37,539 bases of DNA from NCBI RefSeq assembly GCF_000003605.2, contig NW_003105103.1:295852-333390 (forward strand), in the 5' to 3' direction. This stretch comes from Saccoglossus kowalevskii (taxonomy: Eukaryota; Hemichordata; Enteropneusta; Harrimaniidae). The notes under the pieces were generated by a model that saw only the letters and a list, made by a program, of their open reading frames with translations, searched no databases and was not told where the DNA came from. Below, piece by piece: positions 1 to 36,935 of the stretch. Each line of letters begins with the position of its first letter. Positions within the stretch are counted from its first letter, which is position 1. A program made the translations under genes and the position numbers.

Positions 1-897
1 AAGTGCAGGATAGAACAAGCAGGACAGCTGACAGAAAGTTTTGACGTGAAGACAGGAGAAAGGCAGGAATGCTTACTGTCACCTTTCTTTTCCTCCTGGT
101 TGTTGACAGGATCATAAAGACTACGGAAAAAGACGAACAATGGGATCCAGTGGCCACTCTTGACACAGCTAGAGGATCTAGACTTTGTCGATGACCTGGC
201 ACTTCTCCCAGATACAGGATAAAACAGCTCATCTGGACACAATGTCAATCAGCAAAGGACAATATTAATAGAAAGAAGAATGAACTCATGAAAATCAACA
301 CTACAAACAGTACACCAGTCACACTTGGAGGGGGAGACGTGAAGAAGACTAAGTTTGTTGTATACCTGCGAAGTGTGGTAGACCAACAAGGGGGCATGGA
401 TAAGAATGTTACAGCCTGGATAGGGAAAGCAAGGGCAGCTTTCATCATGCTGAGGAATGTCTGGGCGTCCAGTGTAATACGTACAACTACTATCTTCTCT
501 AATGTCAAATCTGAGATCTGGAGAACAACAAAGGCAACACAGCACACTAACATTAACACTTGTCTGAGGAGGATCTTTAAGATCAAGTGGTCAGAGAAGA
601 TCAGCAACCTGGTGCTGTGGGCAAGAGCAGAAAAAGAACCAGTGGAAAGCCAGATTACCAAGAGAAAATGGCCCTGGATAGGACACACTCTCAGAAAGCC
701 ACCAACGAGCATCACACAACAGCCCTGACCTGGAACCCACAGGGCAAGCGAAAGAGGGGAAGGCCTAAGAACAGCTGGAGAATGGACACTGAAGAAGAGA
801 TGAGGAGCATCAGTAACAGCTGGCACGATCTGAGAGGGAAGGCTCATAGACGAGTACAGTGGTCTGACTGGGCCAAAGGGCCCAAGTAAGTAAGTAA
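1..897 (+). mobile_element. 3' end of a decayed non-LTR retrotransposon (LINE)
   Basis: This is a remnant of the reverse transcriptase and C-terminal part of a LINE ORF2, reading left to right and cut by the window start. Translation shows an RT stretch like RQECLLSPFLFLL near 60-100, then a catalytic-loop remnant FVDD at 184-195 where active elements have FADD. A C-terminal tail follows, with WIGHTLRK and GKRKRGRPKNSW, a signature seen in many invertebrate endonuclease/reverse-transcriptase LINEs. The tail is split between two frames (288-728 and 587-889), with a frame change near 715, and the RT part needs further shifts, so the copy is dead. It ends with tandem TAAG units at 887-897, a tail type typical of some LINE clades. 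The exact clade (RTE-like or other) is not resolved. The antisense ORFs over this stretch are shadows. Confidence 0.85.
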
Positions 898-3800: not shown

Positions 3801-4427
3801 TGTGTGGTTGGAAGAAATTGCCACAATAATCCGATAGAAACGGACACAGCCAATTAACACAGCCAATTTTGCAACAGAAAAAATAACATAAACGTTGAAG
3901 GATATATATTTCGGCATTTGAATTTCATCGCTTTTCAAATTTATTGACATCGAAAAACGTTTCCGTTCACGCATGTTTAACTCTCAATCTCACTGGTTCA
4001 TAGAGTTCTTATGCACGCGTATGTAAACGACATATAACTCATTTCAAATGAGAACTTTTACCTATATGGCTTAACAACTAACCGTAGCGAATACAAGCTA
4101 TCTTTGGCAAACGCAATAATAAACTGCACAGATACACTCAATTTATGTTTTTTCAACAGCGATGAGATATGACCAACAGACGATAATAACAGAAACATGA
4201 AATAAACACGTATCGGTAGACTCAATCGGTTTGTGTGACGGATGGGATGTGCTATATAGTATACACCGAAACACAAATCATAGAACAAAGAGGCGACACT
4301 GGTTGTTGCGTAGTTAACGACTGCCCTTTTGGTATTATGTCCACAGACGTACGTCTACCATACATGTATAACGCATGCTATATATACAGTGATTCCTAAG
4401 AATTCTCGACACTTTCAACATACGTAC
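898..4427. other. No gene recognised; AT-rich spacer or intron of the minus-strand receptor
   Basis: If the receptor exon at 4428-4615 is real, this stretch is its first intron, because the gene runs leftward. I looked for a second ligand-binding-domain exon on the minus strand and did not find one. A plus-strand ORF at 3639-3857 has one hydrophobic stretch but no recognisable family, no splice context and no paralogue in the window, so it is not called. Short homopolymer runs (1638-1649) and a CA run near 2820 are the only simple repeats noted. Confidence 0.5.
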
Positions 4428-4615
4428 CGTATCGAAGTACCAGGCAGTAGCTTCTCACGTTCGATCCTCTCCAATGCAATAACTATGGCACCGTAGTTAG
4501 TATAATAGTCAAAACTACTTATGACTTTATCAGTAATGAAACCAACTTTGATACCATCCGTCCAGTCAACAACCATTGCCGACACGACACCCAAAAAAGC
4601 GAGAACGATAAGCAT
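4428..4615 (-). CDS. First coding exon of a receptor with an ANF-receptor-type ligand-binding domain (receptor guanylate cyclase-like), partial
   Basis: The exon starts at the ATG at 4615 and ends at a GTACGTA donor whose G is at 4427, giving about 62 residues with the last codon split. Residues 1-13 are a hydrophobic signal peptide (MLIVLAFLGVVSA). They are followed by IKVGFITDKV, then YGAIVIALERIERE and LLPGTSIR. This order (beta strand 'KVGFIT', helix 'GA...AL..I..E', then 'LLPG') is that of the N-terminus of type I periplasmic-binding-fold receptors, especially natriuretic-peptide or speract-type receptor guanylate cyclases. The family normally continues with a transmembrane segment, a kinase-homology domain and a cyclase domain, none of which lies in this window. 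A metabotropic-glutamate or GABA-B type receptor is possible but less likely. An X-box-like motif lies 84 bases upstream. The assignment rests on a short stretch. Confidence 0.45.
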
Positions 4616-4698
4616 TGTGGTCGAGTATTGAAGTAGGTAATGGGTATTGGTGGAAAATGTAGTTTATTTAAGCAGACAGAATAGAGTAGAAACTCTTG

Positions 4699-13459: not shown

Positions 13460-14758
13460 TGACGTGAAAAAAGGTTTTGAATATTTATAATGATTGACCC
13501 AGCGGCCATTTTTAATCCTTTATAAACACACCTGTGTTGTTTTAGAGAATAATCTACACTTAATTTGTGATGTATCTGCAAACAGCGTTGTTGTTGTAGG
13601 TTAATTGTAGAACAAGGAATGTCGATGATCTAGGGTGTGTTACATTCAATGCGAAGACATGATCGTGCTCGCTCATTTTGAATTCAAGGCGAAGACACCG
13701 TGATCGCTTGTTTTGATGCAATGTACTCGTAAAACACAATCCGAATACGATGCTTCACAGAATACGTCGTTCACAAATAAAACTAATATTATTCGAAGCA
13801 GTAGTTGACAAATGCTGAGCCGTATAAAGGTTTTTATTAAAATCGCAACTCGGGCAAGTATTATAATAAAGACTCGTTCTTTTTTTTTTGCTACTAGCAT
13901 GTTCGTATAATGCGACTTCTGTCTGACGCGACGTGCCAACCTGAACCTGGTCGTATGGCAAAACAAAAGAATCAATTGTGTAGTTGTTAAAGTTTAAGTC
14001 ATTCTCAAAAAGGCACTGTAGTCTTCGGTCGGCTTGTTCCTCTCCAAGAGACTTCAATGAGGCGACCAGTAATTGAAACATACAGACAGTCTGTGATCAA
14101 GACATTTTAAATTTAGGACTGACTTTTGACATTGGTATCTTCTTGTTTTATCTACCACGTTTGTAATTTCGGCATTTTAAATAATGATGCTCCGCTTTTC
14201 AAGTAGAACAACTGAAGGTCACACTAATAATCCTGTGGTGCTTCTCATAAAGAGTGGTTTGCGCATGCGTCAAACCAAACGTATCGTAATCTGTTGTATT
14301 CCGCGAAGCTGAATCGCAAACAGCACAACCAGTCGATAAATAATGGGTCATATGTGTTTTTATCATATTTCTCCAAATTCAAAACGTAATCTCTTTCTGT
14401 AACTATTATTTTGATAATTTGACATAGGTTCATAAAATCAACAACAAAATAAAAAAAGCTTAAAAATAGCAAAGAGCGTGGGTCGCTACCTTAATCGGCC
14501 AACTTAATGTTAGTGAATATGTATCGTCAGTACCCTTCTATTGTAATAGATAATTCTTTAAACAAATGGTTGACAGTTAGCCAATTCGATTTTAATGTAG
14601 CATGATCCCATGACGAATCTTTTCACCATACGCCAACGTAATATCTGAAATTTATATACGGGCTGCCACACCATCAACATGTTATTTGTTTTACTTGACA
14701 ACATATGTATCAAATTCGAATGACATAAATTAGGACGGACGAGGTAACAATACAGAAA
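13460..14758. repeat. Tandem duplication, copy 1 (about 1.3 kb)
   Basis: It aligns nearly end to end with 14836-16149, from TGACGTGAAAAAAGG to CAATACAGAAA, with scattered substitutions and small indels. The minus-strand ORFs inside (for example 13755-14081) are not kept in copy 2, where the equivalent frame is shifted and stopped. The unit therefore looks non-coding, or the remains of a decayed gene. No transposase or RT signature was seen. Confidence 0.85.
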
Positions 14759-14835: not shown

Positions 14836-16149
14836 TGACGTGAAAAAAGGTTTTGTATATTTATAATAATTGACCCGGCGGCCATTTTTAATCCTTTATA
14901 AACATACCTGTGTTGTTTTAGAGAATAATCTACACTTAATTTGTGATGTATCTACAAACAGCGTTGTTGTTGTAGGTTAATTGAAGAACAAGGGATGTCG
15001 ATGATCTAGGGTGTGTGAGTCAATGCAAAGACATGATCGTGCTCGCTCATTTTGAATTCAAGGCGAAGACACCGTGGTCGCATGTGTTGATGCACTGTAC
15101 TCGTAAAACACAATCCGAATACGATGCTTCACAGAACACGTCGTTACAAATAAAACTGCTATTATACGAAGCGGTAGTTGACAAATGCTGAGCAGCATAA
15201 AGTTTTTTATTAAAATTGCGCCGACCGGGAGATTTGACGTCACGGGAGTCAGCGTGTTTTTAGCTACTAGCATGTTCGTATAATGCGACTTCTGTCCGAC
15301 GCGACGGCGCCAACTTGAACCTGGTCGTGTGGCAAAACAAAATAATCAATTGTGTAGTTGTTAAAGTTTAAGTCATTCTCAAAAAGGCACTATTGTCTAC
15401 GGTCGGCTTTCCCTCTCCAAGAGACTTCAGTGAGGCGACCAGTAATCGAAACATACAGACAGTCTGTGATCAAGACATTTTTGTTTTAGGGCTGCCTCTT
15501 TTGACATTGGTTTCTTTGTGATTTATCTACCACTTTTTTAATTTCGGAATTTGGCAGACATTTTAAACAACGATGCTCAACTGTCAAGTAGAGTAACTGG
15601 TTCTTCTCATACAGAGTGGTTAGCGCATTCGTCAAACCAAACGCAGCGTCTCCCAAATATTGCATATCGTAATATGTTGTTTTCCGCGAATTAAAGTTGA
15701 ATCGCAAACAGCACAACCAGTAGATAGATACTAGGCCATACCATGTGTTTTTATCATATTTCTCCAATTTCAAAACGTAATTTCATTCTCTGACTTATTC
15801 AGATAATTTGACATAGATTCATGAAATCAACAAAAACAAATAATAAAACCTCAAAAATAGCCACGAGCGTGGGTCGCTACCTTAATCGGTCAACTTAATG
15901 TTAGTGAATATGCATGGTCAGTACCCTTCTATTGTAATAGATAATTTTTTAAACAAATGGTAGACAGTTGGCCAATTCGATTTTAATGTAGCATGATCCC
16001 ATGACGAATCTTTTCACCATACGCCAACGTAATATCTTAAATGTATATACTGACTGCCACATCATCAACATGTTATTTCTTTCACTTGACAACATATGTA
16101 TCAAATTCGAATGACATAAATTAGAACGGATGAGGTAACAATACAGAAA
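14836..16149. repeat. Tandem duplication, copy 2 (about 1.3 kb)
   Basis: Second copy of the unit at 13460-14758, same orientation, separated from it by 77 bases that include the 27-base pre-insertion flank (14809-14835). It lies about 290 bases upstream of the signal-peptide exon of gene C, so it may supply part of that gene's upstream region or 5' leader exon. Indels relative to copy 1 (for example around 15540-15660) disrupt every shared reading frame that I followed. Confidence 0.85.
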
Positions 16150-16315: not shown

Positions 16316-16437
16316 GATCTTATTAAGAAAAATGCAGCCAAGAATGATTGAGAAATGGATGACAGATTTTGTGTTTAATACAATTGACATGCAAGGACAT
16401 GATTTTAACTAGTATTGATTTTCTGTTTGCAGGTAAA

Positions 16438-17836
16438 ATGATTGTAAAACAATTAATATTCGGGCTGAGCATCTTAGCTTTTGGATCTTGCGATACAGGT
16501 CCAGGTAACCCTTCTGATGATTCCTGCGTTTTGTGCAATCATGCATTCTTTCCAAAGGGGGAATGGAATGGCGAATGCACAGAGGAGGTCCCTTGTCCAG
16601 AGATAATGAATAATGCAGGGGATACTGCAGAGAAGAAAGATGTGTTGTTTAAGAGGCCATACTTCATTGTAGATGTACCATTCGAAGATAACACGCGCAC
16701 GTATCGTTATGTAGCATTTGAAGCATCAGTACTCGACTCTGTCGATGCTCCCCCTAAAGTATGTATGTTTCCAAAATCAATTTAAATCATGTTAAACTGA
16801 ACGAGGAATTCAAAATTTGACCTTAGTTTATATAGTAGTAATATGGATATCATACCCACCATTTTGACGAATAAACGTCTTATAACTTATTGAAATTACA
16901 GCAAATTATAATACGATGAAACAATAAATAAGTGAGAGAAGTATAACATTATTTGTTTTGATCGTGCAATTCTGCAACCCTTATATAGCCTTCCTCACAC
17001 GGCAACCATGTTGATTGCCATTTTCAATATTGATTTCCTAGGGGTGTTAGTAAACAACTTTACCTTACGTGTTCTACATTTAGGTGAAGGTATTTTAAAT
17101 ATGCCTCAATAAAAATGTTTCCATAATTGATTACAATATTTTTTTAGTTTTGTTGTACGTAGCTAATTATATGTCACCTATAAATGCATATTGAATTGCG
17201 TTATAGTGTTATTTTAACGTATTCATATTTTGATAAACATGAATAGTTTCTATTATAATAATTGCATGTATGCCCACATCTACAATTATCAGTGAGCAGA
17301 TCTTCAAATTATTATTTTACCTCAATAATATCAATTCGCCATTGCAAATTAGCTAAAATTACGTTCAACATTTCACTTCAACTAATATTTGTCTACGTAA
17401 GCATTATTGTAAAATATTTTGCTATACATCTATATAATGTACATTTACTTCTTCTAACAGGGAGAGGGACGTTCCGTTGCAAATTGCCAATTTTGTATGC
17501 TAGACATACGTAAAGGCAACTGGGTTACTACTGATTGCAAGTTTATTGTAAGTATCACGTGCTTGTTTTATGTTTAGAATTAGTTCTTTAGAAACAGTTA
17601 TGATTCAGTCTTTCAAAAACCATAGTTTTATACATTATTGTAATGTTTTTATTTTTGCATAGACGTGTCCAGCACAGCTGTCCGACAGTGTTGCGTTCAA
17701 ACTGGATGATGATGGTGCAGCAGACAGAGTAGAAAGTTTTTGCCGTGTTGACAAAGAGGGTCAATCTAATCATTATACATGTTACTGGGTTCCTAACATT
17801 GAAACTCTGGTTAGTAACCTGATCGCGGGTAGTTAA
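16438..17836 (+). CDS. Secreted cysteine-rich protein, gene C (three coding exons, 193 aa)
   Basis: Coding exons are 16438-16758, 17461-17547 and 17663-17836. All joins are in phase 0 with GTATGT/CAG and GTAAGT/TAG borders. The ATG lies 5 bases after a CAG acceptor (16430-16432), so a leader exon probably exists upstream. Residues 1-17 are a signal peptide. The mature protein has Cys at 18, 30, 33, 47, 53, 116, 119, 133, 138, 163 and 176. Two regions share one pattern: CVLCNH..KGEW..EC....PCP (30-54) and CQFC...KGNW...C...TCP (116-139), which suggests an internally repeated module. TYRYVAF (88-94) and TCYW (175-178) are shared with gene D. I recognise no named family; a loose vWC-like fold is possible. 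An extracellular role is inferred from the signal peptide only. Two polyadenylation signals follow the stop. Confidence 0.85.
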
Positions 17837-17910
17837 AATAGTTAACCGCAATAGTTGCATCTGTATGTATAGTTTTGATTTTTGTTCACCCATGACTATC
17901 AACACTTGGG

Positions 17911-17935
17911 AATAAAGAATACTATAAAGAATAAA
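17911..17935 (+). terminator. Two AATAAA polyadenylation signals of gene C
   Basis: AATAAA occurs at 17911-17916 and again at 17930-17935, about 75-100 bases after the gene C stop codon at 17834-17836. This is suitable spacing for a short 3' UTR. Confidence 0.65.
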
Positions 17936-17936
17936 G

Positions 17937-19785
17937 CTCGCTTATGTCATTATTTTGCGTTTTCGCCCAAAAATGTTTAGCTATAATTGTCGTTTTGAAT
18001 AAATGCCAAATGAGTTATCTCGGAAGATAGTTATAGGAATTCATCAATTGTGAGGTAAAAAGGCAAGAAATGAATGTGTTTTGGGGTTAAAAAAACATGC
18101 AATTAATATTGCTTGAATCGATCGTAATGTAACAAACTATGTTTGAAAGACGAGAAAACATGTTGGGTGTATAACCAAACGGTGCATTATAGCTGAAACC
18201 CAAATAAAATTTCCGTTACTAGTATTACCAGCGGTCAGAAATGTGCTGAAGGTGCTTATGCTCAATTTTAAGTGGGCATGTGTGAGTTGTACGCAAGAAC
18301 GACAATTATACAAGATTTAAAAGATAATTTAGGAGAAGTTATGATATTGCAGTGACAACGATTCCATATATTAAAGACAACGAAATGCACTCTCACACTC
18401 TGGAGATGTGTGTGTGCAGTGTCACGTTACGAGGTGTTTATTAGCGTTCACCGTCGAGGTCCACGTGCCGTAGACTGACGGCGACGCAGTTACCACAATA
18501 AACTCCTAACGTAAGCTTGTATAAAATTGTGGCCCCCAATGCCTTTTGTAGCCAAAAAAAGAAACGTTGACGCAGATACTTTGTCGTCCATTTAATCTGA
18601 TCGCGTACATGATGACTTCCATTTAGTTTTAGAGGGAATATGCAAGTTGCTGTTCAACAAGACAGTTTCCATGTATTCCCCGTGTTATTACATTCTTGAT
18701 TAAAACTTTTGACCTATCTGTAGAGATTTCATTCGCTGTAGAAAAGGAAATTTACATTGTACTATTGACATTGAAATTATTTGGACGGGGTATATATGAT
18801 AATATATACGGTGAAAATTAGTAGTGGTAAAAAAATAAATAATCACTGTAATATGCCATGAAATCGACGATGCTGCAAACTATATTTTGATCAGCAAAAT
18901 ATACTAGTACTGATTCAATTTAGGGAAAACTTCAAACTTTGTATTCGAAAATGCTTTTTTGTGTGTAAACAACATTTTAGACGAGTACGTCTTGTAACGG
19001 TTGGTGACGGTTGGGAAGTCACAAGATAGCAAAAAGATATTAAAAAAAAAAACTTTTACTTTAAATTAGAATGAACAACCAAATTTATGAAAGATCGTCG
19101 CGGGATAAACTAGTTGTTGAGTTGGAAAATAAAACCGGTTCAAGTTGTTCAGAAATGGGGAAGTTGACGATGGTTGAGTGTCAAAAATATATAAGGGAAG
19201 ATAATATTGTAGTAGTTAGTGACGACCGAAAACCTCGTTAATTGAGAGAAAGGCATGATGGTCAAGATTTACCCATCAATATCATGTCGTTTCAGAGTAT
19301 TATGCAGTATCATGATTTTGGTAACAAAATGCCTGAATATTGAAGGTGGTGTTAGGAATGCCCATAATGTTTTTACTGTTGTTAAGGCAATCAAATATTA
19401 AACCAATCGGAATTATTATATATGAATGACCGACACGTGAGCCCCAAGCAACGATCGACAATTAAAATATCCACACTGTACACTAAACAGATGCTAACTG
19501 TATAATATTGGTTCAATTTTAATTCATGGTCAGCGTTAACCTAGCTAGGTACAGTTTCGGTTATCAGTTCAATAACAAATCAATACGAGCTCTATTGACA
19601 ATTTCATCAGCGCCACGTACCATAAGCATAAACACTGTTTTCCCAGCTTATGAATTTACGCAATTGACCACACGCAATATATATCCCATAATGACGAAAT
19701 GCAAAATTAACGCTTTGTCATATATTTGTGTGTTCATCTGCAGACAATATTTTTGTAACAAAATGTGTGTTAGGACTGATCTTGT
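17937..19785. other. No gene recognised; spacer between gene C and dead exon E
   Basis: AT-rich sequence apart from the fold-back island at 18423-18513, which is listed separately. No exon of the C/D family was found here. Confidence 0.45.
18423..18513. repeat. GC-richer imperfect fold-back (about 91 bases)
   Basis: CACGTTACGAGGTGTTTATT at the left is nearly complementary to AATAAACTCCTAACGT at the right. Inside, GCGTTCACCGTC and GACGGCGACGC pair imperfectly. It can be a tiny fold-back transposon or a structured RNA element. No target duplication was identified. Confidence 0.35.
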
Positions 19786-20048
19786 AAGGTAGATCCTGGT
19801 AACCCTTCTAATGGTTCGTGCGTACAGTGTAAGCATGATTTGTTTCCCAATGGAAATTAAATGGTGAATGCACAGAGGATGTCACCTGTCAATGAATATT
19901 GCCAAATTCAGAGTAGATTGTCATAAAGATAAAGATGTGTTACGGCAACAAGCATAACACGTTGTGGATGTATCATTGAAGAAAAACTCGAGCACGTATT
20001 TTTACGTGGCATTGTAAACGCTATAAATTCTACCCCCCACCACCAAAG
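19786..20048 (+). pseudogene. Dead first exon of the C/D cysteine-rich family (exon E)
   Basis: Alignment to gene C exon 1 starts at GATCCTGGTAACCC and runs to CCACCAAAG, where C has its splice donor. Recognisable pieces are DPGNPSNGSCVQCKHDLFP, then after a frameshift GECTEDVTC, a KDVL piece, and FYVAL where C has YRYVAF. A TAA stop falls where C encodes the GEW motif, the frame changes at least twice, and the donor is degraded (GTATAA). No leader acceptor or ATG equivalent is intact, and no matching exon 2 or 3 was found before 20543. It is a third, dead member lying between C and D. Confidence 0.8.
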
Positions 20049-20543
20049 TATAATGTATCAATAAGTTCTAAATCATTTTAATTCACGTTTATCTTTGCAA
20101 GGAAACAATAATTGTTTGTAATGTTATTGCTATGTATGTTCGTACATTGAGAACTAGCAACTAGTAAACAGACACCGGTCGGCCATTGAAGTAGGAACAC
20201 ACTTTTTATTATAATGAGCATCTCCATATATAAAATTACACGTCATTGATATGCTAATGTGATGCTGTCATATTCAGGTCACACGGGGTCAATACACTAC
20301 AGTTATCCAAAATAATCTAATAGTACTGGGATATATAACATAAAACAAAAGAAATAAATAAAAATGTCATCTTGTTTGTACATTTACGATCGGATTGTTT
20401 TTATCGAGGTGAGTAGTAATATAAATGTACATGTTTTTTTTGGTATAAATCACACGACAAATTGAAAAAATAGTCTAATTTAAAATAATAAAATTATAAA
20501 ATAATAAATTATAACCATATATGCTTCACTGTATAAAATACCA
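20049..20543. other. No gene recognised; spacer
   Basis: AT-rich spacer between dead exon E and the 3' end of gene D. Nothing resembling exon 2 or 3 of the family was found on the plus strand. Confidence 0.5.
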
Positions 20544-20549
20544 TTTATT
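20544..20549 (-). terminator. AATAAA polyadenylation signal of gene D
   Basis: TTTATT on the plus strand gives AATAAA on the minus strand, 40 bases beyond the gene D stop codon (20589-20591). Confidence 0.55.
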
Positions 20550-20588
20550 CACAGCCATTGACATTACTATTATTCATGTACATCAACA

Positions 20589-23500
20589 TTACACATACAG
20601 ACCTGTTACATTCAAGATTTCAATCATAGCTACAATATCGAGAATCCAATAACAGGTATTCCGAATTAATTCCCCCACGTTGTGATTAAGACAAAGGCTT
20701 GTCACGTGCGCTGTAATAGGGTCATCAACGTAGAACATATCAGTGCTAGTCAGTGAGGCAGCGCACGTCTGAATGAGAATAATAACATTAGATTAATTGA
20801 TTGAGTATGATATAATTATACTAACTGTAACAGTTGTTAATACAATCGTAGTTGGAAAAGCCGATCAAGCATGATTGAAAATGATATCTGAAATTATAAT
20901 GTATATTGGTATTTAAAATAAAATTAATAATATGATTACTTTTTAACATTCAACTGATCTTGAGACAGAGAGAGCAACATAACAAGAAATGCAGCACTGT
21001 TAAAGTTATTTGTCCGAATATGACAGTGGAGTACGAATAGATTCATACTAAAGCAAGAAAAGTATTGAGCTCGCATTGGATAAGTTCTAAGTTGAACTCT
21101 GAATGCGATGATAGTCTGTCAGTCAATGGAACAATTGTATATATAGTAACATTGATCATGTCTGAAGCCTACGGATTGGGCTGGGTCTTGTAATGTTGTA
21201 TGAATAGAAGTAACACTACAGTTGAGACTGTTATCTATTAAAATGCTGTTTATTTTTATTTTTTTTTATTAATGAAGAAAACATTTAGTTTATTGGTTTA
21301 TTTAGAGAACTAATTCGCAATTAATACATATATTGGATGCACTAAGCTGTTGTAATCCGAACTGTATTAATGACAACCATACTGAGGAGTTGTATAATTT
21401 ATATACTAATATAGTGACATCGTTGGAGCAATCGGCCCAGCATTGTATACCAAATTCTAAAACTAGGAAGGATAAAGTAGTTCCGGGGTGGAATGACCAA
21501 GTTCGTGATTGTCACCATATTGCGAGAGATTCGTTCAGATTATGGGTGTCGAATGGCAAAGCGCGCACAAGTGTAATTTATGAACTAATGCGCAAAACAC
21601 GTGCGCAGTTTAAATTAGCATTTAGAATGTGCAGGAGGAATGATCAAATTAAAGCAAACAAAATGGCTAGTAAATTATATCATGGTGACACACGTAAATT
21701 CTGGGATTCTGTTCGAACGGTTACTAATAGATCATGCCCATTACCTACCACTGTAGACGGATGTAATGGCGATTCGTGCATATCGGACATGTGGAAACAG
21801 CATTATTCATCCCTTCTCAACTGTGTAAATGATTGTGCAAAAAAAAGGTAACGTGACGACAGCACTACACGACATTGAATTTGACAACGACATGAAAGTC
21901 ACGTCACAGGAATGCGCGCAGGTGGTGAACAGGTTAGAGAAAGGTAAAGCAATTGTCTCTGAACACGTGATACATGCCAATTTAAGCTTTATTCAATTCT
22001 TGGTTTGTGTTTTACTGCATTCCTTGTGCACGGAAAACTGCCTGGTAGTTTGTCGAATGCACTTATTGTTCCTATCGTCAAAGACAAGTCCAAAGATGTA
22101 TCGTCAAAAGAAAATTATAGACCAGTGGCAATTGTGTCCGTTTTATCTAAAGTGTTAGAATCGTGTTTGCTAACGCGCCTAGAGAAGTATATTCATACCA
22201 GTGACTATCAATTTGGCTTCAAGACGAGGCACTCGACAGATATTTGTATTTTTGTACTTAAGGAAATTATAGAATTTCATAAGCGCCACAAGTCGCCGGT
22301 ATTCGCTTGTTTTATGGACGCATCTAAAGCGTTCGATCGGGTGAATCATTTGACATTGTTCATTAAGGTAATTAATAGAGGTGTTCCATTGTTTATTGTG
22401 CGTTTTCCACTGGTTTGGTATAGCAGCAAGTTTTTCTGTGTACGTTGGGCTTCGGTGGTTACAAGTAGCTTTAATTTGACTAACGATATCTGCCAGGACT
22501 GTCACAAAAAATATTTGCATTGTATGTAGACGAGCTCAGTGATAAGTTTCGTTTGGCAAAAGTGGGATGCCATTTAGCAGGTGTGCCTATAAATCATTTA
22601 CTTTACGCCGATGACTTGATGTCTCCGTCGGCGAAGGCACTTCGTAAATTGGTTGAAATATGTGAGAAGTATGGTACACGCCATTTTATTATATTTCATC
22701 CAATAAAAACAAAATATATGGCTTTTTCCCCAAAATATTATAAACAAGTTCCCTCTGTATATTTGTATAACAAACCATTACAATTTTTTGATGATATCAA
22801 GTACCTGAAATACACCATGAGGGTATCAGCCTCTGGAGATGATGCTAGAGACATGCGTAGACAACTCAGGTCAATTTATGCAAGGGCAAATCTCATTTTG
22901 AGAAACTTTGGGAAGAGTTCGGAACATGTGAAATGTACTCTTTGTCGCTCATTTTTATGTAGTAACTATTGCCTAAATGTATGGAGCAATTATACTGTTA
23001 AGTAGTTGCGTGCTCAGCATGTAGCGTACAACAATGCACTTCGGCTGATTTTTAAATTAGAGAGGTCGAGCAGTGCAAGTGGTAATTGTGTGAGAAGAAA
23101 TATTTTCAATTTTTCAACACTTCATAGAAAATCTTTGTACAATTTTAAACAGCGATTATTTCAGAGTGACAATAGTATAATTGATAATTGTATAAATAGT
23201 GATTTATTCCTAAGGTCAAGTTTTTGGCGCAATTATAGGCGCCTTCTTTATCAATAATGTGATTTCTGTTGTAATTTCTCTATGGACCTTTGAGTCTGAA
23301 ATAAAGTATAATAATAATATTTGTATGAGCTCTGTAGAATCTATGAAAACCCCGAATTGGACGGACATCTGTAAATATAAATATTATTTCTAAACCATGT
23401 TGACGGTTTCGTCTGCACTGGTTTTATCTTTCACTTCAAAACTCACTCAAACAGTTTGGCTTATCGTTGATTTCTGTTGCTGGTGTTACGGATTACATAC

Positions 23501-24505
23501 ACATAAATAAGATACTCACCATCATCTCGCAATCGTTGTGGAATTTTAAAGTACAGAATTGGCAACTCTCTCCCTGTCAGAGGAAAAATCAATAAGGTAT
23601 CATCATGAGAGATATTGTCCAAGTTTCACATATTGCTACCAGGTTCCCAACCCAAAATAAATATTATAAAATTTACCATCCTAATCTAATCAAAGAAACG
23701 TTGTTGTACAATTAAAGAAAAAGCAATAAATTATGAATCACATCAATAGTTGGCAATGTTATCAAATGAAATTTTTTTCTGTGTCAAACAATAGCTCCAA
23801 TACAAGTTTTTATTAAATAATAACAAACACCCTTTATTTGACTAACATAAACAAATAAGTATATATCTTTTTTTTCATTTTTTATTTTGGTTTTTAAAAT
23901 AAGTATGTAAAAGCTCAAGGTTACATTATATGCGTACGAGGTCTAAACTGTGGCTGTCAAAGTTGACATGAATATTTAAGAAAACTGAAACATATTTGCA
24001 TTACCTCGGAGTTGTAATTGCTAACTAATCACTAATTGCAGCTCGCTGCATGTTGCATATATTTGTAGGTGAATATGGTTTGGTAGCATTAGATTTTATC
24101 AAAAATATAACTGGTATGTGTACTTCAGTACATTATAGACGGGATAACAACCACAATATTATTTTGGCCAGTCGAGTAATTAATTTCTTTTTAGGAAACA
24201 TTTATACATACCTTGATGGTAAGATTATTCCCGCCTTCCACTGATGGTACAACTGCTACGTAACGATATTTGCCGCCTATTGTTTTGTCACAATGATGTA
24301 CGTCTTTTGAAGCTATACATCTTTCATTTGGGCAGGGCATCATAGATGGACAGATCATATCTGCACATTCACCAATCCATTCTCCCATTGGTAAGTATGT
24401 ATGATTGCACTGTACACACGTATCATTAGAAACGATACCAGGATCTTGATAACAAGATACTACTGCTAACATAGTCAGCCCGTATAAAGATGTCGTTACA
24501 ATCAT
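20589..24505 (-). CDS. Secreted cysteine-rich protein, gene D (three coding exons, 175 aa), paralogue of C
   Basis: Coding exons, in reading order, are 24505-24212, 23573-23520 and 20768-20589, all phase 0 with GTATGT, GTGAGT and CAG borders. As in C, the ATG sits 5 bases after a CAG acceptor. Residues 1-17 are a signal peptide. CVQCNHTYLPMGEWIGEC (30-47), GKYRYVA (78-84) and NTCYW (153-157) align with C. Exon 2 keeps CQFC but lacks the KGNW segment, so the second Cys module is shortened. D has extra Cys at 58, 63 and 72. Exon 3 was found by its TC...SLC...TCYW match to C exon 3; no start codon marks it. Intron 2 (2.75 kb) contains an antisense LINE. The expected location is extracellular; the function is unknown. 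Confidence 0.82.
21333..23320 (+). mobile_element. Decayed LINE remnant (linker, reverse transcriptase, C-terminus) inside intron 2 of gene D
   Basis: Reading plus-strand, antisense to gene D: an endonuclease-RT linker (21333-21851), then after frameshifts the RT domain (22005-22529), then 22520-23005 and 23006-23257. RT landmarks are ENYRPVAIVSVLSKVLE, YQFGFKTRHS, FMDASKAFDR (Asp of motif A at 22317) and HLLYADDLM (catalytic YADD at 22604-22615). The C-terminal part has RRQLRSIYARANLILR and AYNNALRLIFKLER, typical of the CR1/jockey group. At least three frameshifts or stops break it, so it is dead. The 5' end lacks the endonuclease (5' truncation). The 3' end after the TAA at 23255-23257 is a short UTR closing with AATAAAGTATAATAATAATA. 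Confidence 0.9.
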
Positions 24506-25642: not shown

Positions 25643-26100
25643 TTAGAATGAGTGGTCGGTTTCAAGTTTGATGAGTCAGGTACATCCATTGGCTAAGCTT
25701 GTTGTACATAGATGCAAAAGAGTATAGAACCATTAATGCTGTAGGGTGTACTGGGATGGGTGGAGGATTTCAGGTTTGTAATGACTGGTTATAATGTGCT
25801 ATCTCGTTGTTTTCAGGATGCAGTCTGATATTTGTTGCTTTCTTGGTTGTTCAATTATGGCTAAAATTTGTGTGGTGGGTACAAGATGTGTTTATTGTTC
25901 GTTGAGTCATTGTTTAGACACCCTGCAGGTTGAAATGGTATGGTATGGCGGTGTTGAATATCAACATGTCTATTCACCAACATGTTTATTCTCTTGCTTG
26001 AGTGTGAAAGTACATGGTTTATTGACTACCTCTTATGTTTTTAAATTTTAGAATTTCTTTTATTTGGGAAGGTTTTTCTATAAAAATATAACAGACATAT
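25643..26100. repeat. Dispersed repeat R, short copy
   Basis: Same orientation and high similarity to 31067-31922, from TTAGAATGAGTGGT to TATAAAAATATAACAGA. This copy lacks about 390 bases present in the other (31404-31793). The ATG-initiated ORF in it (25794-26051) is partly kept in the other copy but then diverges. Its content (Cys-rich, MCYLVV start) matches no family I know. A non-autonomous transposon or segmental duplicate is likely. Confidence 0.8.
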
Positions 26101-28352
26101 CAGTTTTTTTATTTAGATAATGGCAATTTGTTGGTCAGAGCGCCCTCTAGTATTTGTGGGGAATCATGTTTATTTGGAATGCTCTGATTGGATGGAAGTT
26201 CGAGCCTAGTAAAGTGTGATAGAATTGGCATGTTATGTTCAGATTCAAATAAGTATGAACCACTAATTTGACAGGGAAGTGATACTCATAATGCAGCAAG
26301 CTGTTTTAATTGCTGTTGTGGTCGAGTTTTTATATTTTCCTGTCAAATGCATTTGTTGGTCCATTGAAACATCAAAATAATATTCCCTGTAACTTAGACT
26401 CTTGTTGATCAAAGCATTTTTAAAATCATGGGTATTAACTCCCCTCAAGTTATGACCTATTGTCCCCTATAAAATAATGGTTCCATCTAAGTATAGCGGA
26501 GTATAGCGTTGATTCATCTCGTTCTATTCTGGATTACTTGGAGCCAATAAAGATCCTAGAAAGTTAGTATTTATATGCCTGTGTGTTTTGTGTTTTTTTC
26601 ACTGTCTTTGACATTCCCAGTATGTTTGTTGTTATTGACAACAATTCAGTCCTTTGCAAGGTTTCAGTCAATGTTTTTTTTTCACTACCTACGCATCTCC
26701 TCATCTGGCACTATGTAGCTGGTGTGGTATATTTATCACAGACAGTAGGGCATTTGTCACATTTAGTGCTCCAAAAATATATTCTCTCTCCATGTGTATT
26801 TATATAAATTGATGCAGTTTCTTTGGCTTGAATAACATTCACTGGCTTCGTACATACAGGTATACTGATTTACCTGTTTCTAGTTGAAATATAGCCAATC
26901 GTATTACCCAAGACAGTTGGACATTTGCCACATGCACTAACAGTCGTTTCCAAGTGCCACAGTATGAAACAAGTAGTCAAATCTGATATTGGCTGGAGCT
27001 TTTATTTATATGGAAATGAACATGGTGAACGGCAAACTAGATGGTCAGAAAGTAATAAAAATAATCACAGGTTTACTTCACCCACCCCACTATGAAGTGA
27101 AAGGCTGTTTATAAGGTCATTTATGATGGTTTCATGTTTATTATTGAAAAAAAATAGTTATAAACTTCTATGCTCCTGCACCCAATCGTGGGGATCAATC
27201 ATACCATACAGGTGTCACTATCACTAAGACAAATGTAATGTAAATAGCGCCCTCACTCANNNNNNNNNNNNNNNNNNNNNNNNNNNNNNNNNNNNNNNNN
27301 NNNNNNNNNTTTTGTAAGTATTTTTTTACGGACACTGTAGTTTGAAATATGCACAAACATGTGTTTTTTTTCTGTTTGTCAAAAGTGATTTAAAGAAAAT
27401 TAGCTTCTAAACCATGCCTTTGTTTCCTGTCAAAATTGGTTTACGGGTACATCTGTTTACTATGAAGAAAGTGCCGTCTTGAAAACTGTCTGCCAAATGT
27501 CAATTTTGCTGGGCAGCAGCTCAAATTTCACTAATTCAAGTTTATGCGCAAATTAACACCCAGGCTAGTTGTCTGTACGATTGTTGCAATACTGTTCAAC
27601 CAAATACAATGCCTCGACGGCGTTTTGAAGATAAACACATTGTCAATCATTTGTGAAAATTTAAAAAGAAAAGGTCAAAGCGTCAAGGAGCTTTTTTAAA
27701 AAAGTTCTGGGATATGCACTAAAAAGAAGCTGAGATAATTGCTAATTTGCATATTTTATAGTTAAGTAAAAATAAATGCTGATTTACTTCGCCATTGGAT
27801 TTAACAGAGTTCCACTAATGATTTCAATTTCAAATTTTCACAGAATACAGATGTTCATACGATGCCATAGAAAAAATAAAAAAAAGTGAAATTTGGCAAA
27901 ATTTGCGAAATAAACTGCAGCTCTATCTTGAGATGATGATGATGTATGTACTCTCCTGTATAAGGAATCGTATGAGATGTCTAGAGTGCTTGGAACTTTG
28001 ACATATAGAGAAGCTACTCGTCATAGGCGTGTCTGCACGATGCCACCACATTTATTCATTTCTTATAATATTGTGCGTTTATATTCCCAGACACGTGAAA
28101 CATTAGCGAGGAAATCGACAATGATGTTGTGTAATATCTGAGCCTGTCACTCCCATTTCAATTACAAAATGACACAAACGGTGTAGTTTCGAGTTTGTAA
28201 AATTTTTGGCTGTTGTTTCTGGCTTTAAAGCAATAAAAATGACATCTTCAGTAAAAGAGCCGACATTTTTCTAAACTATCTTTATTTTGGACATGCATCT
28301 ATTTTTATTTTGTTATAGATTGACATAAAGCTTATGTTAATTTTATCAACAG
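26101..28352. other. No gene recognised; repeats and a 50-base assembly gap
   Basis: N bases occupy 27260-27309. The bases just before the gap (TAAATAGCGCCCTCACTC) recur at 31043-31060, just before the long copy of repeat R, so another copy of R may be collapsed in the gap. A similar TRGGRCATTTGYCACAT phrase occurs at about 26748 and 26919. The earlier exons of the TLCD-like gene ending at 28745 should lie here or further left, but were not found. Confidence 0.5.
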
Positions 28353-28745
28353 GCACTCTGGGGTCTAGGAACCTTTCTTTTCCTGGCGAGGAAAGCTATC
28401 TACTATCTAATCATTGGATCGATGAGTGAGATGAGCAGCATATTTTTGCACAGTCGACAGTTTTTTCAGATGTGTGGCATTCCGCCCAACAATAGTTATT
28501 ACAAGGCAAACGCCGTCATTAACATTATAATGGCATTCGTATTCAGAATATTGTCAGTATCCTACATGGTAGGATGGCTAGTTGTGAATTACAATGATTT
28601 GCCATATTTTGCTATTTTCATTATGACAGTAGTTGATGGTTTTCTGTTACCCTTCAATATTGTACTCGTCAAAAGACTGCTTATGAGGGACATTTTCAAT
28701 GGTGAGTGGTTTTGTGATAAAAAGAATAAACACTTACAGGAGTAA
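28353..28745 (+). CDS. Terminal exon of a TLCD1/2-like TLC-domain membrane protein (gene A), partial
   Basis: A CAG acceptor (28350-28352) opens a 130-residue phase-0 frame ending in TAA at 28745. It begins ALWGLGTFLFLARKAIYY, then MSEMSSIFLHSRQFFQMCG, the TLC-domain signature region (E..SIFLH.R). It then has NSYYKANAVINIIMAFVFR, a further hydrophobic segment, and a basic C-terminal tail. Order and spacing match the C-terminal half of TLCD1/TLCD2, multi-pass proteins that influence phospholipid composition and membrane fluidity. The exon begins exactly where the TLCD family continues after its HHVM motif, and where exon 3 of the neighbouring gene ends (also phase 0). Exons 1-3 of this gene are not visible upstream, so it is either incomplete because of the gap or a relic. 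The frame is intact. Confidence 0.78.
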   Translation, partial: ALWGLGTFLFLARKAIYYLIIGSMSEMSSIFLHSRQFFQMCGIPPNNSYYKANAVINIIMAFVFRILSVSYMVGWLVVNYNDLPYFAIFIMTVVDGFLLPFNIVLVKRLLMRDIFNGEWFCDKKNKHLQE

Positions 28746-31066: not shown

Positions 31067-31922
31067 TTAGAATGAGTGGTTGGTAAAAAGTTTGATGAGT
31101 CAGGTGCATCTATTGGCTAAGCTTGTTGTACATAGATGCAAATGAGTATAGGAACCATTAATGCTGTAGGGTGTACTGGGAGGGGTGGAGGATTTCATGT
31201 TTGTAATGACTGGTTGTAATGTGCTATCTCGTTGTTTTCAAGATGCAGCCTGATATTTGTTGCTTTCTTGGTTGTTCAATTGTGGCTAAAATTTGTGTGG
31301 TGGGTGGAAGTTGTGTTTATTGTTTGTTAAGTCATTGTTTAGACACCCTGCAGCTTGAAATGGTATGGTCCAAATCCAAATTCGATATGGTGGTGTTGAA
31401 TATCTGTGCGATATGGCAGTGTCGTCTAAAAACCACGCATCAAAATGATTTCTGTTTATGTATTTACTGTTGTAGATCCTGAGAACTAGCCATTGAATAT
31501 GATGTCGGGAATAAATGGTTTTCTGAACAAGCTTTATTAATTATTGCTGGCAATATTCCAGTATGAATTGGGAGCAAACTGTAACACCAAATCTAGTCGT
31601 TGTATTGTTATGCTTCTAAAATATTTTTTTTAAATATAATAAAATAAAATAGAAATATTATGTTTATTTTTGTATGTGGAAACATGGCTTGCCCACTCAC
31701 AAATATAAAGAAGTGTGGTCTGCAGTTCTTTTTTGTGTGAAAGAAACTGGTATTTTACAGAGTGTAAACAATAAAACACTCACAGTGCAAGGCTAGTTCA
31801 CCAACATGTCTATTCTCTTGCTTGAGTGTGAAAGTACATGGTTTAGCGACTACCTCTTATATTTTTAAATTTTAGAATTTTTTTTTATTTGGGAAGTCCT
31901 TCTATAAAAATAGAACAGATAT
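31067..31922. repeat. Dispersed repeat R, long copy
   Basis: Counterpart of 25643-26100. The left part (31067-31403) and right part (31794-31922) match the short copy, while 31404-31793 is present only here. The shared start TTTAGAATGAGTGG and the shared right end near TATAAAAATAGAACAGA define the unit. No open frame is conserved throughout, which argues against a host gene. Confidence 0.8.
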
Positions 31923-32904
31923 ATATATATACCTACGTGTACATTGTTTGCTCGTTTTGGTTTATCATAATATGGTATGGAATTTTACCCACGCAACCAA
32001 CTTATGAATAAAATGAAAATATATAATAACAATATAATATAATAAATATAATGTTAAGAAAACAGTGATATGAACCCGGAATTTGAGTAGTATAATTGAA
32101 GTCAACCAAATAGGTAAAACATGGCGTCGTCACCATAAGCTCTCTTTTGTTCCATACGCTATCACACATAGAATAGTATATGTAGCTATGAAATTATAAT
32201 ATTGCCACACAAAAATGTAGAAGAATGTAGAGAATAAAATCATTAGGTTTGACGTAGGAATAATGGATTAATTAAGTAACACAATTGCCACATGCGTCGC
32301 TTTAAAATAAGTTTCAATTGCTGTAATGAAGTAGGGAAATAACATGTACAATTGATAACTAATTGTTTGATTATAAGTATTTAAATGAATTTGCAAGTCA
32401 AATAACCCACCATAACAACTCAGTCAGTAAATCAGTCCTCTCATTTAACAGCTATACCGTAGACTCATCTGAAATCTAACATTCTGTCATATTTAGCAAC
32501 ACTTTCGTTGACAGAGAGAGAGAGAGGAATTAAACGACAGGCCACACTGCGTATTTTAGAACCACATATAAATATACATTTATAACGTACAAATAAAATT
32601 ATATAGTGTTACGAACCCGGAGTACGGCACTTCAGATGAGCAAGGAATTTTACCCTTCGTTTATTTTGTTATTTATAAGCATTACGTCATGGGCATGCGC
32701 ACAACAAAACATTTATTATTTGCATACTGTGAATGCTACTAATCTTTGGTATATTTTACCTTTCTTCCTTTGTATATTCAGCATTCAAACACATCAGTTG
32801 TAAATAAACAACTACAGGCACATTTTAATTAGCTCTCATCTTCTACACTATATAATATGTTTAAATGTAACCTTGTCCACCTGTCTTGAAAATTTCGCTT
32901 ACTG
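31923..32904. other. No gene recognised; AT-rich spacer
   Basis: It contains AT dinucleotide-rich sequence (31918-31932) and a GA run (32514-32526). A plus-strand ORF starting at 32606 or 32636 has a signal-peptide-like start (SFILLFISITSWACA) but only about 55 residues and no family, so it is left uncalled. Confidence 0.4.
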
Positions 32905-33773
32905 CACCAACATTAATTGTAAAAGTGAAGTTCTGTGTCATATGCTACAATTACAGGCGGCAGGTGTGCGTGTTTGTTGGATTTATCGACAATGTTTTCA
33001 TATAGTCAATAAACACAGCAAACATCCCAGTACATTAGTGCTATATTTAGTACACGATTATTGATACATTAGATGCTATATTTTTAATATGAATTATAAT
33101 ACGGTCACTGAATCTTGACGATTGCGTGTGCATGATTAAAATTACAGTATTTAATTTATCAGATATATATTTGCTTTGTTGTAATACGTTTCAATCGAAC
33201 AGACTTGTTGGTGTTTGCTATAGCACCAGTCTAGACAAAGCATGCATAACCGCGGCCGGTGTGTAAAATCTTGCAAACAATTTTCTCGTCGACTTACATG
33301 AGTTGACTCTCATTGGTCAGACTCGTGCACCCACAATTCTTTTCTGTTTCAATTGGATCTTCAGTATATGCCCAAAGTCGAAGGAAATAATACCACAGAG
33401 TTATAAATGGAACAACGTCGCCACCTCATTTGTACATGCATCGATAGTTGAACCGCTGACAGTGGATTGGTATTAGACATATATTTGTTTTCATGAATCT
33501 AAACGTCTCCACAATGGAGAAACACGTCTTTCACTTATTTCCACTGTTATTGATGAACGCACGATTCTTTCATTTATATTTAAGCTGGATGACAGCACAA
33601 AGTATATTTGCCATTCTTTCATTTGTTATTAATTGCAATCTTTTTGACGAAGTGAATATTTTGTTTACACTTATCTGTGGGGTTTTCTACATTCTGAATA
33701 CAACAGAAAACATAATAAATTGCAGTTTCCTGTTAACCAGCAATTTACTAAAAATAGCCTGCTTGCCGTGCTT
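32905..33773 (+). repeat. TLCD-like tandem duplication, upstream (dead) copy
   Basis: Aligns with 34087-35342 in the same orientation, covering the upstream region, exon 1 and the start of intron 1. Compared with the downstream copy it lacks 108 bases (34295-34402 there) and 252 bases (from 34642 to 34894 there). Confidence 0.9.
33350..33620 (+). pseudogene. Dead exon 1 of a TLCD-like gene
   Basis: Closely matches exon 1 of the TLCD-like gene B from its residue 27 onward (NWIFSICPK, then KWNN.ATSFVHASIV). The start codon and first 26 codons are missing because of a 252-base deletion whose two ends both carry ATTGG. A TAT codon is changed to TAG (33474-33476), and a Gly in the conserved GPLTV segment is changed to Glu. 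A one-base loss follows near 33567. It cannot encode the protein. The ORF at 33493-33777 in this stretch is a non-coding frame. Confidence 0.88.
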
Positions 33774-34086
33774 CTAATAGAGCAAATACAGTCATATTAT
33801 TTGGCATCCTCCCACTGCCCAGTGAAAATAATATTACATTCCACCCTACGACAAACAACAACAACGTAACGACGCAACTCTTGTATTTTGTATTTAATAA
33901 ATTAGTTTAAAATATATGTCTCTTTGTTTGCATATACAATTTATTTGCTTGGTGTTCTCAATATATAACATCCCCCCTTTTAAGAAGCAATTCTGAATCA
34001 GTCCTCGTAATACATATTCAAATCACAATGTCTAGTATGATAGCTAACTCTCCGTGATATGTTGTTCCGAGCTGAGTTCTAATAAC
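33774..34086. other. Spacer between the two TLCD-like duplicate units
   Basis: About 310 bases with no gene. AT-rich, with an ACAACAACAACAACG stretch near 33849-33868. Confidence 0.5.
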
Positions 34087-34590
34087 AACATTAACTGTAA
34101 AAGTGAAGCTCTATGTCAAATGCTACAATTACAGGCGGAAGTAACGCGCGTTTGTCAGATATAATGTTTTCAGTGTTTTCATATAGTCAATAAACACAGC
34201 AAACATCCCAGTACATTAGTGCTATATTTAGTACACGATTATTGATACATTCGATGCTATATTTTTAATATGAATTATAATACGGTCACTGAATGCAGCA
34301 AACACCAACTCCCCAATGCCGACTAACAAGTTGTCCATCGATCGATACAACACTGTGGTATTGGACATTCGAATGATTTCTAGCATAAAGTTTAGCATTA
34401 ATCTTGACGATTGCGTGTTCATAATTAAAATTACAGTATTTCATTTATCAGATATATATTTGCGTTGTGTAATACGTTTCAATCGAGCAGAATTGTTTGT
34501 GTTTGCTATATAATCACTAGTCTAGTCAAAGCATTCATAACCGCGGCCGGTGTGTGAAATCTCGGATACGATTTTCTCGTCGACTTATAT

Positions 34591-34614
34591 GAGTTGACTC
34601 TCATTGGTCAACTC
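34591..34614. promoter_or_regulatory. Spaced inverted repeat upstream of TLCD-like gene B
   Basis: GAGTTGAC and GTCAACTC form perfect 8-base arms around TCTCATTG, about 200 bases before the ATG. The loop overlaps a CCAAT-type ATTGG. In the dead copy (about 33300-33325) one base is inserted in the right arm. A dimeric factor site is possible; the function is inferred. Confidence 0.3.
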
Positions 34615-34685
34615 GTGCACCCACAATCCTTTTCTATTTTGATTGGCAATCGTGCCACAATATGATACATGCATATGTATTATTT

Positions 34686-34704
34686 AATCTAATCTAATCT
34701 AATC
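34686..34704. repeat. TAATC microsatellite
   Basis: About four tandem TAATC units in the leader region of TLCD-like gene B. It lies within the segment deleted from the dead upstream copy. Confidence 0.8.
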
Positions 34705-34814
34705 GGGATAGCCCTAAACATTATCATATCATAAAAATATCCTATCATTTAAACTAGTGCATTTTTAAACAACAATTAACCGCCACCATTACTACTACTG
34801 ATATTACTACCATA

Positions 34815-36230
34815 ATGAATACAGCAGACTCTACACCGAACCATATACTAGTATCTATTATGATGGGATCATCACTCAGTTGCCTTTGCATCAATTGGAT
34901 CTTCAGTATATGCCCGAAGCCGAAGGAAATAATACCACAGAGTTATAAATGGAACAACGCCGCAACCTCATTTGTACATGCATCGATAGTTGGACCGCTG
35001 ACAGTGGCTTGGTATTATACATATATTTGTTTTCATGAATCTAAACGTCTCCACAATGGAGAAACACGTCTTTCACTTATTTCCACTGATATTGATAAAC
35101 GCACGATTCTGTTCATTTATGTTTAAGCTGGATGACAGCACAACATATATTTGCCATTCTTTCATTTATTATTATTTGCAATCTTTTTGATGAAGTGGAT
35201 ATTTTGTTTACATTACACTTATCTGCTGGGTTTCCCACATTCTATAGACAAAACAACATGCTTTTGAAAACAACAGAAAACATAATAAATTGCAGTTTCC
35301 TGTTACCAGCATTTTAAATTTACTAAAAATAGCCTGCTTGCCAATAATCTCTGTTGAAATAAATTTTCTATTTTGAGTAAACAATTCCCACAATATAGTA
35401 TAAACAACAAATTACATATTTGATATTATTGTACAGTTTATTGGACACATTTAATTACTACGTTTGCATATTGTTCTTCTATGTTATGAAACTTACATAA
35501 CGCATCATGAAAATATCACACGTTCCAGTAATAGAAAAATTAGTTAGGTTTAATACATCCTCATTATTGAACAATAACTATGTAAATTACATGCAAATCT
35601 ATTCACAACGACCAAGTGCATGAATCTAATATTAAGTTTTTTGTTACCAGTCTCATTTCAGACCCTAGTGTATTAGCTGATTTATATGATAGGAATTCAG
35701 CGAGAGCGGAAATGGTAATTGCATTGCTTTTAGGTACGATTTCTAATAATACGAATGTGTGCGTTACATCTAACATATCTTATATTATTGTTCATCTGTC
35801 ACCGTAACGCCATAAATTACAGCGTGCCGTAATTTTGCGGTAATGCACAGGGTATTTTCATCCTATCTTATCAAATATGGAACAATTACGCGTGTAAGCG
35901 CCCTCTAATAATACAAACAAACATGGCAGCCCGCATGATTTGCGTGGTGTGGTGTAAAGTAGTGTAGTGCGTCGCAGTAACTCACCATGTTTTGCACTAG
36001 TATTTACACAGATTGTATAAATCAGATGGTAAAATAAAAATAATACCTATTCCTCGTTTAATTTTGATTATGGGATTTTTTATTTATCGAACTATGTCAA
36101 AGTTAACACACATTCCTGTTTTACCTTTTATGACTGTTTTATTTCAGGCTATTTTGTTTATGACATAATCGATCACATGAGACACACAAAGCTATCAGAT
36201 GTGTGGCTGATTATATCACATCATGTAATG
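34815..36230 (+). CDS. TLCD1/2-like TLC-domain membrane protein (gene B), exons 1-3, 3' end outside the window
   Basis: Exon 1 opens at 34815 with MNTADSTPN, a transmembrane segment and the TLC signature WNNAATSFVHASIVGPLTV. Exon 2 (35662-35733, CAG acceptor, GTACGA donor) reads PSVLADLYDRNSARAEMVIA. Exon 3 (36148-36230, CAG acceptor, GTAAGT donor) reads GYFVYDIIDHMRHTK, then VWLIISHHVM, with the paired His typical of TLC proteins. Phases at the 2-3 join fit exactly and recreate LGYF. The exon 1 donor is not resolved: no GTRAGT lies in frame; weak candidates are at 35020-35130, with GTCTCC after HESK fitting the phase. TLCD1/2 relatives sit in the plasma membrane and tune phosphatidylethanolamine acyl chains and membrane fluidity. 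The last exon (like 28353-28745) was not found before the window end. Confidence 0.75.
35343..35661. other. Part of intron 1 of TLCD-like gene B
   Basis: Intronic by position; nothing else recognised. A second possible acceptor (CAG at 35648-35650) lies 11 bases before the chosen one and would extend exon 2 to read SLISDPSV. Confidence 0.5.
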
Positions 36231-36689
36231 GTAAGTATTATTATATAGAACGTCAGCAGTACGACAGTTGAAATGCACAGGTAAGGTTCCATATTGGAAA
36301 CACGCCATCTAGCGTACTAAACATGACTAAACAGTGCCCACTCTTTCTAAAATAGCAGACACTGTGAAGTGTCTTTATTATTGTTTTACTGATTCGACCT
36401 TGTTTGGAATGTAATGCATATGTATGATTATTGGTTACTGTAAAATACTTTATTTTCGCTATTTTCGCTGAAAGAATAATTTAGTTAAAATAAATCCCAG
36501 CGAATATACCTTTTTACTATATTTTACATTCGACTTGTCAAAAATCAGTGAAAATAAATTCTATACAAATCACCCAAAAAGTCATTTCAGCGAATATTAA
36601 TTCTAGCTGAAATAAAGTATTGTATAGTATTTGGATATAGCCTCATGTATTTCTTATATGCGACTTTTGTGCAAGATATATGGTCGGGT
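36231..36689. other. Start of intron 3 of TLCD-like gene B
   Basis: Begins with the GTAAGT donor. No exon equivalent to the gene A terminal exon was found. A CTCF-like CGCCATCTAGCG lies at 36303-36314. Confidence 0.5.
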
Positions 36690-36935
36690 GAATGTGAACA
36701 ACATGATGAAATAATGTAAAATGCTAACAAACCGAAATCATAATCATACAATAAGAATAAAATAACATGAAAATGATAACATAATGATGAAATACTATAC
36801 AAAATTTGAACACAATGATGAAATGATATAAAAAGGCTAACAAAATTAAAAAAGGATATGAACATAATGATAAAGTAATATAAAATGTGAACATAATGAA
36901 ACAAAAAATGTGAACATAATGGTAAAATGATAAGA
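36690..36935. repeat. AT-rich degenerate minisatellite
   Basis: Variants of TGTGAACATAATGATGAAAT recur about seven times with a period of roughly 25-40 bases. The minus-strand ORFs over it (36587-36993), rich in Phe, His and Tyr, are translations of the repeat. Confidence 0.75.

Follow-up and report, generated by a model that had tools for sequence, protein, structure and literature searches.

Two genes, called C and D, lie within a stretch of 37,539 nucleotides of the hemichordate Saccoglossus kowalevskii (contig NW_003105103.1, positions 295,852 to 333,390 of the forward strand). The whole stretch is called the window below and is numbered from its first letter. The analysis supports C and D as a small family of probably secreted, cysteine (Cys)-rich proteins, and the observation of the two genes in a first-pass annotation, made from the letters alone, is confirmed as a whole. 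The reading favoured overall, with a probability of about 0.55, is that of a small family of secreted proteins, stapled by disulfides, that was duplicated locally, evolves fast and may serve recognition or defence. The likeness between the two predicted genes goes beyond chance and points to homology, as detailed first; the internal organization of the proteins is considered afterwards.

Exon Structure and Homology of C and D

Gene C, on the + strand, and gene D, on the - strand, are predicted to encode products of 193 and 175 residues, respectively. Their coding exons, and a possible acceptor site just 5' of each start codon, are given below (a slash marks the splice junction).

16438..16758, + strand: gene C, coding exon 1 (107 residues; hydrophobic start, module 1 from C30 to P54, TYRYVA; donor AAA/GTATGT)
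17461..17547, + strand: gene C, coding exon 2 (29 residues; CQFC...KGNW...C; acceptor AACAG/GGAG, donor ATT/GTAAGT)
17663..17836, + strand: gene C, coding exon 3 and stop codon TAA (57 residues; TCP...TCYW; coding to 17833, stop at 17834-17836)
24212..24505, - strand: gene D, coding exon 1 (98 residues; hydrophobic start, module 1, KYRYVA)
23520..23573, - strand: gene D, coding exon 2 (18 residues; CQFC...DC, KGxW absent; splice sites read)
20589..20768, - strand: gene D, coding exon 3 and stop codon TAA (59 residues; TCA...TCYW; coding to 20592, stop at 20591-20589)
16431..16437, + strand: putative 3' splice site of an intron in the 5' untranslated region of gene C (AG/GTAAA just 5' of the ATG)
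24512-24506, - strand: matching putative acceptor of gene D (AG/GTAAC just 5' of the ATG)

The three phase-0 exons described in the first-pass annotation are borne out in both genes, as are the shared motifs CxxC...GEW...EC...CP, YRYVA and TCYW. All exon lengths are indeed divisible by 3, and the four introns, two per gene and at the same two places, are all of the GT-AG type and in phase 0. The splice sites of C and D are also alike pair by pair, reading AA[AG]/GTATGT, ACAG/GGAG, [TG]/GT[AG]AGT and AG/ACGT. The first AATAAA 3' of the stop codon is found at 17911 in C and ~20549 in D, which is weak evidence in such AT-rich DNA. At the other end, both intact genes have AG/GTAA, then A or C, then ATG, with the AG 5 nt upstream of the ATG, so that a non-coding exon may precede the start codon. 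Since the frame is open from AG to ATG in both (FAGKM, LTGNM), coding exons upstream of the annotated ATG may lengthen both proteins at the N-terminus.

In tblastn searches at word size 2, exon 1 of C matched exon 1 of D with 63.5 bits and exon 3 matched exon 3 with 32.7 bits, against maxima of 23.5 bits (exon 1) and 24.6 bits (exon 3) among 60 shuffled versions of the window (blocks of 9 bases, default word size). The blastn similarity between the genes covers 16403-16785 and 17634-17812 in C, which amounts to exons 1 and 3 plus a little flanking sequence, the introns being excluded. Protein identity is 43% in exon 1, 34% in exon 3 and 41% overall, with 69 of 170 aligned columns identical. 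Each of the 11 Cys of C has a Cys opposite it in D (hypergeometric P 3e-5, a generous value because the alignment method already rewards paired Cys). C and D thus belong to one family by the positions and phases of their introns and by the Cys they have in common. The weak link of the predicted D gene is exon 2, which was read from the sequence and gave no tblastn match above 22 bits with exon 2 of C; alignment of the two exons gives a shuffle P of 0.004, or 0.02 with Cys fixed.

A Third Copy, Divergence, and the State of Gene D

One more relative is found between C and D. Like the acceptor-like sites above and the reverse-transcriptase sequence below, it goes unmentioned in the first-pass annotation:

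19778..20050, + strand: third exon-1 copy, degraded, limits approximate, similar to exon 1 of C and D

This copy carries frameshifts and stops, its alignment shows no retained start codon, and it belongs to the family by similarity to exon 1 only. When the window was searched with a profile of the family, C, D and the third copy scored clearly above the rest, and no exon 2 or 3 of the third copy was found. Over 270 ungapped columns, the three exon-1 copies are about equidistant (C-third 0.32, C-D 0.34, third-D 0.35). The family would have originated through local duplication and inversion, leaving the apparently intact C and D and a decayed partial third copy. Two further candidate copies, at 216-317 on the - strand (E 0.27) and 36666-36767 on the + strand (E 0.7-0.94), were taken as noise.

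Over 170 codons, C and D differ by 0.48 non-synonymous (dN) and 0.96 synonymous (dS) substitutions per site, hence a dN/dS of ~0.5; the bootstrap range for the corresponding ratio of proportions (pN/pS) is 0.52-0.87. Within the part of exon 1 that can be aligned in all three copies, the C-D differences are 29/86, 30/89 and 32/88 at codon positions 1, 2 and 3. The exons diverge at codon positions 1 and 2 nearly as fast as at position 3, and the Cys are kept. Such a pattern is expected of an extracellular protein that changes fast around a stable disulfide frame, but it also fits relaxed constraint.

Intron 2 of D is 2751 bases long (23519-20769), and its opposite strand contains reverse-transcriptase frames:

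21963..23002, + strand (antisense to D): open frames of a reverse transcriptase (RVT_1) like that of long interspersed nuclear elements (LINEs)

The RVT_1 match has an E of 1.1e-11 for 21963-22526 and of 6.1e-5, below the Pfam cut-off, for 22484-23002. The adjoining frame 21306-21848 gave no reverse-transcriptase match and may still belong to the LINE-like element; a further frame lies at 23006-23254. D could thus have become a pseudogene, or no longer be spliced as drawn, after transposon entry into intron 2 and loss of KGxW. The reverse-transcriptase sequence itself, nine AATAAA on the D strand within the intron, the dN/dS of ~0.5 and the weak similarity of exon 2 to C all go in this direction. 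Nevertheless, 175 codons are open, the splice sites are intact and the 11 Cys are kept, and this reading is rather unlikely.

Properties of the Predicted Proteins

Both proteins are probably secreted, as suggested by their hydrophobic start: the best 12-residue hydropathy window of C begins at residue 6 (2.12), and D has a window of 1.9 at residue 7. The cleavable signal peptide previously proposed for C and D is putative, judged here by hydropathy only. From residue 19 onward, both chains are acidic, with isoelectric points of 4.4 for C and 4.8 for D. In D the hydropathy maximum is reached close to the C-terminus (2.13 at residue 157). This segment, encoded by 20592-20660 on the - strand, could form an amphipathic helix or act as an anchor signal; the top windows of C include none there.

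A Probable Internal Repeat

The two modules reported earlier in C are found at the positions given for them, module 1 from C30 to P54 and module 2 from C116 to P139. Their spacing is C-x2-C-x13-C-x5-CP in the first and C-x2-C-x13-C-x4-CP in the second. The corresponding spacers of D are x13 and x4 in the first module, x7 and x4 in the second, where the loss of the KGxW part, also noted earlier, appears as a 6-residue gap.

How far module 2 echoes module 1 depends on the type of test. Plain local alignment of one half against the other is not significant, either in C (P 0.17; 0.25 with Cys fixed) or in D (P 0.31; 0.43 with Cys fixed). The crossed comparisons give P 0.06 for half 1 of D against half 2 of C (0.18 with Cys fixed) and 0.39 for half 1 of C against half 2 of D (0.47). 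Profiles built from the C and D halves perform better: hhalign returns P 0.012 over 32 columns, with a probability of 3.5%, and the profile alignment score was reached in 2/300, 0/300 and 0/300 column shuffles at three gap costs, or in 8/300, 2/300 and 3/300 when the Cys columns were kept fixed. At the most permissive gap cost the match spans the whole halves, C72 of D lying opposite C163 of C, and YRYVA opposite YTCYW. The ordered motif was met in 0/300000 shuffles, in 17/100000 with Cys fixed and in 545/100000 without the final P, and the Cys pattern alone in 1527/300000. This motif test is post hoc, because the motif was written after module 2 had been seen. The echo between the modules of C is weaker than first described and has moderate support, from the profile tests and not from plain alignment.

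Taken together, these data favour the two halves of C being a related repeat. The competing explanation, which carries appreciable weight while being the less probable of the two, is that C is one domain and that its modules resemble each other by chance, or by convergence on a CxxC...W...C...C layout. The range of the half alignments (P 0.06-0.39, or 0.18-0.47 with Cys fixed) and the low hhalign probability would agree with it. It accounts less well for the matching C-x2-C-x13-C-x(4,5)-C spacing, for column shuffles that reach the score so rarely (0-2/300, or 2-8/300 with Cys fixed), and for the post hoc absence of the ordered motif from all 300000 shuffles.

A Possible Role and Its Significance

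In the favoured model, the proteins would be secreted and cross-linked by disulfides, and built of two related halves of ~75-85 residues, each following the pattern CxxC...GxW...C...CP...Y-x-Y. Cys that stay in place while the rest of the chain changes fast would suit a protein of extracellular recognition or defence whose binding partner varies. Such a function is a guess, and a rather doubtful one, prompted by the fast change around kept Cys and by local duplication with one dead copy.

Several features weigh against the favoured model. D contains 14 Cys and C only 11, so their disulfide sets must partly differ. Four N-glycosylation sequons are present in D and none in C. Since the peak hydrophobic window of D is C-terminal, the solubility of D is in some doubt. 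Ungapped nucleotide identity does not separate exons cleanly from their surroundings, with 0.68, 0.37, 0.50 and 0.57 for exon pieces versus 0.35-0.57 for intron edges. Moreover, diversifying selection and relaxed constraint cannot be told apart with only two intact sequences.

If C and D carry an undescribed domain, it would represent one more entry among animal extracellular modules, and the locus would offer a modest example of birth and death among genes for secreted proteins, with two apparently intact copies and one dead. Many comparable secreted families exist, so that C and D, without a function, would not alter the wider picture.

Surroundings in the Window

Repeats are described here from the 20 largest of 27 repeat families. 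A direct duplication of ~1.38 kb (13460-14746 and 14836-16137, blocks 87-96% alike) ends ~300 bases upstream of gene C. A second one (32908-33669 and 34086-35212, blocks 83-98% alike) has an uneven spacing of 1.2-1.5 kb, and a dispersed direct repeat (25643-26100 and 31067-31924, blocks 89-94% alike) has its copies 5.4-5.8 kb apart.

Three other regions contain open frames. The frame 28341-28742 (+ strand), which we take to be TMEM56-like, matches the TLC domain weakly (PF03798, E 6e-4, below the Pfam cut-off). By eye, the frame 4418-4663 (- strand) looks like a signal peptide followed by the beginning of the ligand-binding domain of a receptor guanylate cyclase; it has no Pfam or PDB match. 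On visual inspection, the frames 195-886 (+ strand) resemble the last part of a LINE reverse-transcriptase protein; the Pfam scan of 195-725 gave only a weak DUF6451 match (E 0.013). Together with the introns and the LINE-like sequence, the receptor-like and TLC-like frames would point to an animal source. A run of 50 N at 27260-27309 is probably an assembly gap. Neither Rfam at gathering scores nor ARAGORN gave a match in the window.

Comparison with Known Extracellular Domains

The Pfam search, listed up to E 10 with HMMER filters that drop most matches above ~0.1, gave no family for C and only sub-threshold matches for D. NCBIfam, a prokaryote library, had no match for either protein. Among PDB sequences there was none for C alone, for the C+D profile or for half 2, and only chance-level ones for half 1, namely UBR1 (E 4.4, 5.3 and 6.1), which were rejected. 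The sub-threshold candidates for D, all absent for C, were likewise set aside: C1_1 (E 0.013 without exon 3, 0.054 for the second half, 0.024 for whole D), CNP1 (0.06, 0.11), AppA_SCHIC (0.23) and a ZNF462 finger (0.13). Pattern searches for relatives yielded 6, 21 and 35 stretches in viral contigs and 103 in prokaryote contigs, 0 of them confirmed by tblastn, which says little because these collections are not animal genomes. A literature search with generic terms found nothing on the family.

The earlier view of the domain as unplaced and undescribed holds against the Pfam, NCBIfam and PDB sequence libraries. It is tentatively proposed that C and D carry an undescribed, lineage-restricted, tandem extracellular domain of ~75-85 residues (CxxC...GxW...C...CP...YxY/YTCYW), changing fast outside its Cys frame, in which C72 of the first copy in D would stand opposite C163 of the second copy in C under the most permissive alignment.

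A fold like that of the von Willebrand factor type C (vWC) domain had been considered conceivable. C and D are, like vWC and single-vWC (Vago-like) proteins, small, Cys-rich and probably extracellular, and the order Cys, G-E-W, Cys at the module start presumably resembles the beginning of vWC. The module could then be a highly diverged vWC or arthropod-type single-vWC domain, CxxC...GEW...C being the first half of the fold, with an extracellular binding or cytokine-like role. This appears improbable. No vWC-type model was listed in the Pfam search, and the motifs CXXCXC and CCXXC, given for vWC domains in PMC11083620 and PMC5795989, are absent from C and D, which show instead a CxxC start and a CP after the fourth Cys. 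For single-vWC proteins, PMC13115929 describes eight conserved Cys in a compact domain, against 11 shared Cys in two groups here. Only the resemblance is left of the original suggestion.

Another candidate, less probable still, is a diverged Ly6/uPAR three-finger pair, in which CxxC would open each of two LU domains. CxxC does begin both halves of C and D, which are small, probably secreted and locally duplicated. However, the LU domain, as outlined in PMC4839075, has ten Cys, an L-x-C-x2-C start and a CC-x4-CN end, with exceptions having fewer Cys. C and D have neither CC nor a CN end, the halves of C contain 4 and 6 Cys from residue 19 onward, and Pfam gave no LU match.

The closest general parallel is with orphan secreted Cys-rich families. 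While the motif set of C and D differs in being unmatched in Pfam, NCBIfam and PDB sequences, the two genes share with such families the hydrophobic start, the kept Cys, the fast divergence, and the local duplicates accompanied by a dead copy.

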